Shown here piece by piece: positions 43,849-56,536 of a DNA stretch of 64,000 nucleotides. Under the pieces are notes generated by a model. It did not search any database, was not told the DNA's origin, and saw only the letters and a list, made by a program, of their open reading frames with translations. How positions within the stretch are numbered: position 1 is the stretch's first letter; each line of letters starts with the position of its first letter. Position numbers and translations under genes: made by a program. The stretch spans positions 248,001-312,000 of the forward strand of contig NZ_JAGSPM010000004.1 in NCBI RefSeq assembly GCF_018139645.1, in the 5' to 3' direction. The DNA is from Affinundibacterium baiyunense. GTDB taxonomy: Bacteria; Pseudomonadota; Gammaproteobacteria; Burkholderiales; Burkholderiaceae_D.

Positions 43849-44072
43849 GGTCGGGAGTGGCCCGACAGCCAATTACCTTTTTTGCTTCGCCAAAAAAGGT
43901 AATCCAAAAAAGGCGACCGTAGACTCGCCCCTGCGGGGTGCTTACGCTACGCTTCAGCATAATTTGTGCTTCACAAAAAATGGGAAAGTGTTGAAACTCG
44001 CCTTCGGCTCAAACAACAACACTTTCTTATCCATTTTCTGTGAAGCACAAATTACATCGTCTCAAACGGGGG
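43849..44072 (-). repeat. Structured intergenic repeat, copy A
   Basis: 224 bp, inverted relative to copies B and C. Nearly identical to copy C (56318-56536). It contains four hairpins. The largest has a 16-bp outer stem (TAATTTGTGCTTCACA at 43960-43975 with its complement at 44039-44054) enclosing AAAATGG/CCATTTT-type and AAAGTGTTG/CAACACTTT stems with a GCC-GAA-GGC tip. A second tip is CCCC-GCA-GGGG. A third is the ATTACCTTTTTT stem with a GC-GAA-GC tip. A fourth is GTCGGG/CCCGAC at the outer end. No reading frame is conserved among the copies. Confidence 0.9.
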
Positions 44073-44176
44073 TAAGTCAAAAGAAAATTCAAAAACAACG
44101 ACCATCAACTGCTAATCGAAAAAATCAAAGTCCGTTGATACTATGATCTCTCTCTGCTACGCCTCGATGCGTGAAT

Positions 44177-44253
44177 CGTCATTCCCACGAAGGTGGGAAT
44201 CCAGTGACTTAAAAGCCTAACGTCACTGGATCCCTGCCTACGCAGGGATGACG
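44177..44253 (+). repeat. dRS3-like paired hairpin repeat, copy 1
   Basis: 77 bp made of two 20-nt hairpins, 44181-44200 (ATTCCC, 8 nt, GGGAAT) and 44230-44249 (ATCCCTGCC/TACGCAGGGAT), bounded by CGTC and GACG. The first matches the neisserial dRS3 pattern ATTCCC-N8-GGGAAT (recalled, not searched). An inverted copy lies at 47359-47435. Confidence 0.88.
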
Positions 44254-44354
44254 CCTCGATTTTTCTAGCCTAATTGAATCAATTTACGATCGATACTGTT
44301 TGATTTGCTGTTGTTTTTGACTTTGCTTTTGACTTTCACCCACTTCTGACACTG

Positions 44355-44544
44355 CCAATTGTGCAGGACAGAAAATGGAAAAAGAAAGCTTCGTTGTTTG
44401 AGCCGAAGGCGAGTTTCGAAGCTTTCCCATTTTTTGTCTTGCATAATTGGGAAGCCGAAGGCCAGTGGCAGCGTGGTCGCCTTTCTTTGCTTACTTTCTT
44501 TGGCGAAGCAAAGAAAGTGAGTGGCTGTCGGGCCACTCCCGACC
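44355..44544 (+). repeat. Structured intergenic repeat, copy B (diverged)
   Basis: 190 bp, same orientation as copy C and inverted relative to copy A. Sequence diverges from A and C, but the hairpins are kept by paired changes: CCAATTGTGC/GCATAATTGG, AAAGCTTCG/CGAAGCTTT, CTTACTTTCTTT/AAAGAAAGTGAG. The tips GCC-GAA-GGC and GC-GAA-GC are shared. It ends with the same GTCGGG/CCCGAC hairpin. Confidence 0.88.
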
Positions 44545-56317: not shown

Positions 56318-56536
56318 CCCCGTTTGAGATGATGTAATTTGTGCTTTACAGAAAATGGATAAGAAAGTGTTGTTGTTTGAGCGAAGCGAGTTTCAACACT
56401 TTCCCATTTTTTGTAATGCACAAATTATGCTGAAGCGTAGCGTAAGCACCCGAAGGGCGAGTCTACGGTCGCCTTTTTTGGATTACCTTTTTTGGCGAAG
56501 CAAAAAAGGTAATTGGCTGTCGGGCCACACCCGACC
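56318..56536 (+). repeat. Structured intergenic repeat, copy C
   Basis: 219 bp between DUF2892 and trxC. Matches the reverse complement of copy A (43849-44072) almost throughout and copy B (44355-44544) in structure. Stems: TAATTTGTGC (56335-56344) with its complement at 56418-56427; AAAGTGTTG (56364-56372) with 56394-56402; ATTACCTTTTTT (56482-56493) with 56502-56513; GTCGGG with CCCGAC near the end. Hairpin tips are GAA triloops. Confidence 0.92.

Follow-up and report, generated by a model that had tools for sequence, protein, structure and literature searches.

REPs are palindromes of 20-40 bp (PMC3733652). The element described here resembles REPIN/BIME structures and the CGTC- and GTAG-tagged REPs in being intergenic, multi-copy, arranged in inverted pairs and present in species-specific variants. 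In contrast to REPs, however, its arms are ~200 nt long and contain two pseudoknots, their architecture recurs across a bacterial class, and arm pairs can bracket genes. Instead of the REP build, a short single hairpin with a GTAG or CGTC foot, we found arms of ~200 nt with 68 pairs and crossing helices. MITEs and other non-autonomous transposons likewise have inverted ends and are non-coding or carry cargo, whereas the ends of the present element are structured over 200 nt, no target duplication was seen at the sites examined, and no cognate transposase was found.

Integron cassettes carry one attC site, with the core GTTRRRY/RYYYAAC, and not paired inverted arms such as the two divergent arms of the element. 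Small single genes beside folded ends are common to both, but IntI is absent from half of the element-positive genomes. In the pseudoknots of telomerase RNA, SAM-II and guanidine-III, loop 1 consists of pyrimidines and lies in the stem 2 major groove, forming U.A-U and C+.G-C triples. The arm shares an H-type triple-helix pseudoknot with these RNAs (for guanidine III, mentioned in PMC5696562), but it belongs to a repeated, paired genomic element with no known ligand or protein. Furthermore, the mobile or repeat candidate MRSC-65-2 resembles the element in having dozens of covarying copies per genome and in being undecided between RNA and DNA; its architecture, one long stem with a UYCCGG repeat, differs, and the comparison covers this one of the 250 mobile or repeat candidates of PMC11109978.

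A check of Rfam, as proposed in a preliminary description of this DNA, gave 0 matches at the gathering score in the whole window, and below threshold (E up to 10) mostly hairpin-precursor models only. No published description of the element was found in the open-access journal literature searched. We suggest, with moderate confidence and a probability of about one half, that the sequences represent a novel class of non-autonomous, cassette-like composites, of which the folded arms, as RNA or single-stranded DNA, would be the functional part.

Arms in the window and in the same genome

The window, i.e. the whole stretch of 64,000 nucleotides that was analysed, lies in an Undibacterium genome, and its pntA product is 99% identical to the U. 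macrobrachii counterpart. Three copies of a folded intergenic element had been reported from it: A (43849-44072, minus strand), B (44355-44544, plus strand) and C (56318-56536, plus strand). All three were located, and the stems and paired changes quoted for them are present in the sequence. However, A and B are not independent copies but the two arms of one composite of ~700 bp, while C stands alone. Of the two, A on the left (type 1, in the type 1 alignment A2) matches C at 95%, B on the right (type 2) is a member of alignment A1, and both have an outward fold.

The centre of composite A/B (44073-44354) has GTCAAAAGC-like repeats at both inner ends and is without gene cargo. It includes a CGTC-type (dRS3-like) REP pair at 44176-44256; in genome G519 (L347, L348), CGTC-type REPs flank the composites rather than sit inside them. 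According to PMC3733652, CGTC REPs apparently have no dedicated transposase. Arm C belongs to type 1 and has no partner arm, and the corresponding site in U. macrobrachii is without an arm. Within our main reading, and at the same even odds, A/B would form a single composite, with C being either a remnant or a form with one arm.

The family proved larger than the three copies first described. BLAST of C against its own genome gave 27 matches of two subtypes, and the genome holds 23 arms, which form 10 composites and three lone arms (C and two on contig C3). All 10 pairs are divergent. Composites combine one arm of type 1 (~220 bp) with one of type 2 (~200 bp), placed head-to-head about 125-330 bp apart, with the 5' end of each arm toward the centre and the 3' end outward; one composite consists of two type 2-like arms. 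Inserts interrupt a few arms (C26b, C5). In the own-genome layout, no clear gene was seen in the composite centres, many of which include a REP pair of the CGTC type.

Fold of the arm

As RNA, arm C was predicted to fold at -89.5 kcal/mol (z -7.7), and none of 200 shuffles was as good; its opposite (minus) strand folded more weakly, at -77.2 kcal/mol. A strong fold was also obtained under DNA parameters (z -8.9). Pairing was counted on alignment A1, which holds 58 distinct arms of Undibacterium species, almost all belonging to type 2, with a structure of 68 pairs in 10 helices. Standard pairs made up 97.0% of the pair cells in these 58 arms, and 32 of the 68 pairs had changed on both sides (283 cells). 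The covariation score, which is inflated by the relatedness of the arms, was 0.244 compared with 0.118 in shuffles, and 0.244 was reached by none of 500 shuffles. Sliding the partners lowered the score to 0.04-0.07, and a structure read from one sequence beats slid versions for that reason alone.

Many copies, in A1 as well as among the class-wide arms, support the earlier view that paired changes preserve the stems. We found neither an absence of covariation, as judged by our own score against shuffles, nor a known IS or REP family. These results also support the proposal that a folded form, RNA or single-stranded DNA, is under selection or serves as a copying intermediate; both may contribute, as the arms are also homogenised within genomes.

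The 5' domain of C was read from the sequence at 56335-56427 (plus strand, as for all features of C), and the corresponding pairs were counted on A1. It consists of helix P2 (56335-56344/56418-56427), helix P3 (56345-56350/56412-56417, with one T.T mismatch, and 56352-56358/56404-56410), helix P4 (56363-56372/56394-56403) and the apex TTTGAGC(GAA)GCGAGTTT (56376-56393). The apex is almost invariant in A1 as TTTGAGC(GNA)GCGAGTT. The inner stem is the most variable, with the forms GCTTCG/CGAAGC, GTGTCG/CGACAC and GCCTTG/CAAGGC and the further variants GAGAGTCAGA/TCTGACTCTC and AGGGTTGCGAA/TTCGCAACACC. The domain is followed by a hairpin with an inner GC(GTA)GC (56428-56431/56445-56448), likewise read from the sequence, and by helix P6, CCC(GAA)GGG (56449-56457), in which CCC/GGG changes to GCC/GGC within A1.

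On the outward strand, A1 contained 130 G·T cells versus 40 A·C cells, which are cells rather than events, with one column supplying 27 of the 130 G·T. Without columns 46-49, where one variant is misregistered, the numbers were 113 and 16. Pairs 7-12 of stem S2 (see below) gave 49 G·T and 17 A·C in 112 contexts. Because G·T exceeds A·C and the outward strand of C folds better, the outward-running strand seems to be the one meant to fold, with RNA and single-stranded DNA both possible.

The four hairpins of the preliminary description were too few, since the last two are pseudoknots and the third also has a mirror-repeat third strand. In this third 'hairpin', the loop sequence GGCGA is complementary to the upstream TCGCC, so that helices S1 and S2 cross. 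In C, the triple-helix pseudoknot spans 56469-56513 and comprises S1 (TCGCC 56469-56473 with GGCGA 56494-56498), the third strand Y1 (TTTTTT, 56474-56479), S2 (56482-56493 with 56502-56513) and L3 (AGC, 56499-56501). S2 covaries in A1 (6 of 12 pairs). S1 has no double change there (0 of 5 pairs); its covariation is found across families, not inside Undibacterium. Compensated forms across families are TGCCC/GGGCA, CGGCC/GGTCG and TCGTC/GACGA, together with GCTCC/GGAGA at 4 of 5 pairs; among the broken forms, GCGCC/GGCAA occupies 5 of 196 rows and several others occur once each.

Class-wide, S1 was fully paired (5/5, G·T allowed) in 93 of 121 distinct arms, compared with 28.0 expected if the loops are dealt among the arms; the set used 146 of 182 hits, with 4 lacking the stem and duplicates merged to give the 121. 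Nine different all-Watson-Crick combinations occur among these arms, including TCGCC/GGCGA, TGTCC/GGACA, CGGCC/GGCCG, TGCCC/GGGCA, CGTGC/GCACG, CCGCC/GGCGG and CGCGC/GCGCG. A DNA mini-hairpin reading of the GGCGAAGC loop was ruled out, because GGCGA pairs and covaries with the upstream TCGCC across families. The rest of this loop varies outside GGCGA.

The pyrimidine tract between S1 and S2 is a mirror repeat of the stem's pyrimidine arm and hence has a parallel orientation to the purine strand. TCGCC was present upstream in 168 of 176 stems with a GGCGA loop, and apart from one single copy, every tract type agrees with the purine strand in 6-8 of its 8 positions. Of the 168 tracts, 92 belong to the two commonest, symmetric kinds, which cannot tell a mirror from a direct repeat, and the orientation hence rests on the others. 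The asymmetric tracts are mirrored, which ruled out a direct-repeat reading of the first pyrimidine tract. A purine-strand G stood opposite a third-strand C in 98 of 139 class-wide cells in register, whereas shifts of -2, -1, +1 and +2 gave 18, 23, 9 and 19, and the antiparallel arrangement gave 52.

Judged from these comparisons, the third strand follows the rule of a pyrimidine-motif triplex and takes the position known from telomerase RNA. The helices S1 and S2 cross and covary, and loop 1 is parallel to the purine strand, which identifies this part of the arm as a predicted triple-helix H-type pseudoknot. The G.T-A triple is known and would predict a third-strand G opposite a purine-strand T. 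By eye, this arrangement was observed in two copies (L108 13785-14008 and L345 1521-1598). Only three class-wide cells have a purine-strand T, with G in the third strand in two of them and C in one.

The last hairpin is a second H-type pseudoknot, located in C at 56514-56535, with the helices TGGC 56514-56517/GCCA 56524-56527 and GTCGG 56519-56523/CCGAC 56531-56535. Both crossing helices covary with full pairing in A1: among the 58 arms, column pair 198/209 is GC in 37 and AU in 21, and column pair 203/218 is UA in 44 and CG in 14. Pair 200/207 fails in 11 of the 58. Class-wide, a second pseudoknot of at least 9 bp was possible downstream of S2 in 72 of the 121 arms (shuffled mean 5.9, maximum 12, from simple shuffles with loosely placed helices allowed), and these pseudoknots differ in helix sequences; at 9 bp, none was found in 49 of the 121. 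Plain hairpins take its place, by eye, at L240-L242, L244 and L345. Before the second pseudoknot, L007, L009, L049, L264 and L269 carry an additional inserted hairpin that is alike among them (TTGGACTATAGTCCAA or nearly so), a recurrent variant of several loci and species.

Comparison of the arms shows a predicted fold built for an outward-running single strand, with a branched 5' domain, then the triplex pseudoknot and then, in most cases, the second pseudoknot. Our certainty is high for this predicted fold and for the paired layout.

Distribution, pairing and bracketed genes

A DNA search matched 35 of 60 genomes, of which 30 were among 36 Undibacterium genomes (our own included) and 5 among 24 others. 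Within Undibacterium, genomes had 0 to 48 BLAST matches. A pattern search matched 49 of 399 Burkholderiales genomes, about 14 of them with chance-like single matches as judged by eye, and the reversed control pattern matched 5 genomes; the pattern required TCGCCTT and hence favours that S1. A covariance model of the 3' domain found 87 of 369 class genomes at E 1e-4, the class of that sample being Gammaproteobacteria in GTDB. It also found 28 of 249 genomes of a phylum sample at 1e-5, of which 8 belong to one family outside the class, seven of these 8 with one weak hit. This model (R1) was built partly from pattern copies, and its class-wide hits still vary in S1. Up to 9 (DNA), 12 (class) or 19 (phylum) candidates per genome were scored, and the per-genome counts are lower bounds. 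On plasmids there were only matches of 43-97 query bases, in 5 records, and no arm match was found in phages.

In other genomes, neighbouring arms within 1 kb were divergent in 27 of 33 cases, a count among the hits listed for 10 genomes, with G446 and single hits left out. A second set of loci, which overlaps the first, gave 28 of 35; here loci covered by others were left out and many were chosen because a pair was already known. A hand-picked list, with 42 of 47 neighbours divergent, was set aside. Because divergent neighbours prevail in both sets, the head-to-head pair is the usual form rather than a peculiarity of one place. Copies in tandem or on the same strand also exist (L066, L207, L209), and G446 has one same-strand pair 2 kb apart. 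Three near-identical tandem arms with a spacing of 464 bp, plus one inverted arm, were observed in G016 (L066/L246).

Arm pairs bracket small genes in several other genomes. The bracketed products include two membrane proteins at L227, one of them 8xMP (E 1e-11), three proteins of 151, 261 and 188 aa without a clear family (L317-L319), a methyltransferase of 288 aa (L338, E 1e-19), a protein of 261 aa with a sub-threshold PEP-CTERM match (L339), and proteins of 125, 91 and 94 aa (L341, L342, L344). These loci were mostly chosen for wide gaps and give no rate, and most pairs leave no room for a gene. A Pfam scan of these ten bracketed proteins revealed no transposase, recombinase or reverse transcriptase. 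Defence genes as cargo were rejected, as PADLOC, run on 5 cargo proteins, returned a single weak match (E 0.2). At L337, the arms enclose 10 kb with large secretion-type genes, as judged by eye, and this arrangement may be a coincidence. Just outside the composite at L320, positions 1-276 presumably encode the N-terminal part of an IS110-like transposase, by eye and motif.

Mobile or resident element

Eleven own-genome loci were queried for orthologues, and nine were traced in up to four relatives. Four of these were occupied in all five genomes, one with a partial arm in G002 and one in G010. Another was occupied in four of four, the fifth genome being at a contig end. At a further locus, three genomes had pairs, G010 had just one arm and G024 a remnant; one locus was occupied in three of five, and two in two of two. 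Composite A/B is also present in U. macrobrachii and U. flavidum; L093 and L099 match the left gene of A/B and have no arm. At the site of C in U. macrobrachii, the arm is absent, there is no clean junction, and the intergene has diverged. No clean empty site or target-site duplication was seen at the sites examined. Beyond the last pseudoknot, most copies of this genome lose their outer homology within about 30 nt, and in a few pairs it extends further, to 81 and 164 nt. At locus C18, the composite seems flipped between G031 and our own genome (L257 versus L031, by arm lengths), as recombination between inverted arms would give.

Arms of the same locus in different species were no closer to each other than arms within a genome (0.874 versus 0.871 for type 1, and 0.838 versus 0.840 for type 2, with the types assigned crudely), and therefore copying between arms may contribute to the paired changes. 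In G024, one inner-stem variant was found in 9 of 12 typed arms, of both arm types. Thus, many sites have carried the element for a long time, and its copies have been homogenised within genomes, which weakens the idea of an active transposon. Loci common to several species favour a resident, possibly functional element over an active mobile one. Even so, spread at some time is needed to account for the copy numbers, the tandem copies and the gene cargo. In our main reading, the element of Undibacterium would now be largely resident: it often stays at shared loci, is homogenised inside each genome, and has now and then been lost or gained.

We infer a composite of two ~200-nt head-to-head arms, each running outward. 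Between them, the Undibacterium composites examined have repeat DNA or almost nothing, and several other genomes have a small gene. The fold would act as RNA, which is more likely, or as single-stranded DNA. It may provide recognition and protect the ends of an element that is non-autonomous and cassette-like, and that an enzyme encoded elsewhere would have spread in trans. A transcript of the bracketed gene would leave, in either direction, through one correctly oriented arm, and this arm could thus be its 3' end. More tentatively, the family could represent an undescribed class of mobile gene cassettes in Gammaproteobacteria, among them Burkholderiales. In it, a small gene would lie between two head-to-head ~200-nt folds of RNA or single-stranded DNA, each with a telomerase-like triple-helix pseudoknot and a second pseudoknot at the 3' end, and this fold would be the substrate of an unknown copying enzyme, possibly via an RNA or single-stranded DNA intermediate.

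A rather unlikely but serious alternative is a resident structured RNA, i.e. a 3'-UTR or a divergent pair of sRNAs, that has a cellular function and is not mobile. The arms would then be RNA genes or terminator or stability modules beside genes, and their pairing would be kept for function. Triple-helix pseudoknots are an RNA build and the wobble favours one strand, which both fit such an RNA, as do the same-locus composites in five Undibacterium genomes. Moreover, a gene 3' end lies opposite the outer end of the arm on 16 of 20 sides for the genome of the window and on 33 of 51 over 26 loci, although these counts use a crude ORF call and distances of 0-2 nt are doubtful. It is harder to reconcile with the range of 0 to 48 matches per genome within one genus, the homogenised arms, the solo and tandem copies, the different genes bracketed and the patchy distribution. 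Homogenisation, as by the G024 variant, is also what one would expect if there were no selection on folding and the paired changes were created by quasi-palindrome correction (template switching) and gene conversion between arms. Template-switch correction is known for imperfect palindromes. Yet, the one-strand wobble bias, the crossing helices and the parallel third strand that follows the purine strand are not expected from these processes, which makes them a most improbable sole cause.

Two further alternatives involve known enzymes. The arms might be a giant REPIN/BIME, palindromic repeats spread as single-stranded DNA by a RAYT, to which the preliminary description had pointed with its lead of a RAYT/IS200-like transposase. 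The inverted intergenic pairs resemble REP doublets, the C(GNA)G tips of the arms are of a stable DNA mini-hairpin type, and Y1_Tnp was over the cut-off in 41 of 43 Undibacterium genomes. However, no arm was found within about 1.5 kb at any of 20 Y1/RAYT loci (L071-L090), 5 of 22 element-bearing genomes (G213, G337, G304, G463, G727) lack Y1_Tnp, and five of the six Undibacterium genomes without an arm match still have it. An arm of 200 nt with two pseudoknots is also unlike a REP with its one-hairpin build. The lead thus found no support, and this origin appears improbable. Alternatively, the arms could be used by a chromosomal IntI with the bracketed genes as its cassettes, in line with single small genes between folded ends. 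IntI was over the cut-off in 43 of 87 element-positive and 95 of 282 element-negative class genomes (Fisher p 0.011, kinship ignored), and in 13 of 22 element-bearing genomes, including our own. Since it is missing from 44 of the 87 positive genomes, we rejected the integrase as a necessary enzyme and retained a weak association, and we consider an integron-related origin very improbable. The genome of the window encodes a full-length integron integrase (G000:C79:130101-131045; TIGR02249, E 1.6e-139), and BLAST of C gave no arm match on its contig. For the cassette-like composite favoured here, no enzyme candidate stands, and our certainty about the enzyme and about RNA versus DNA is low.

If our reading is correct, a large structured nucleic-acid family runs through a bacterial class, in places where a gene finder sees empty sequence or spurious ORFs. 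It would include bacterial triple-helix pseudoknots whose third strand is readable by sequence comparison alone. As a gene-bracketing element, it would offer a possible route for small accessory genes to move, with a missing enzyme to seek. If it is instead a resident RNA, it would be among the more complex structured RNA families without a function.
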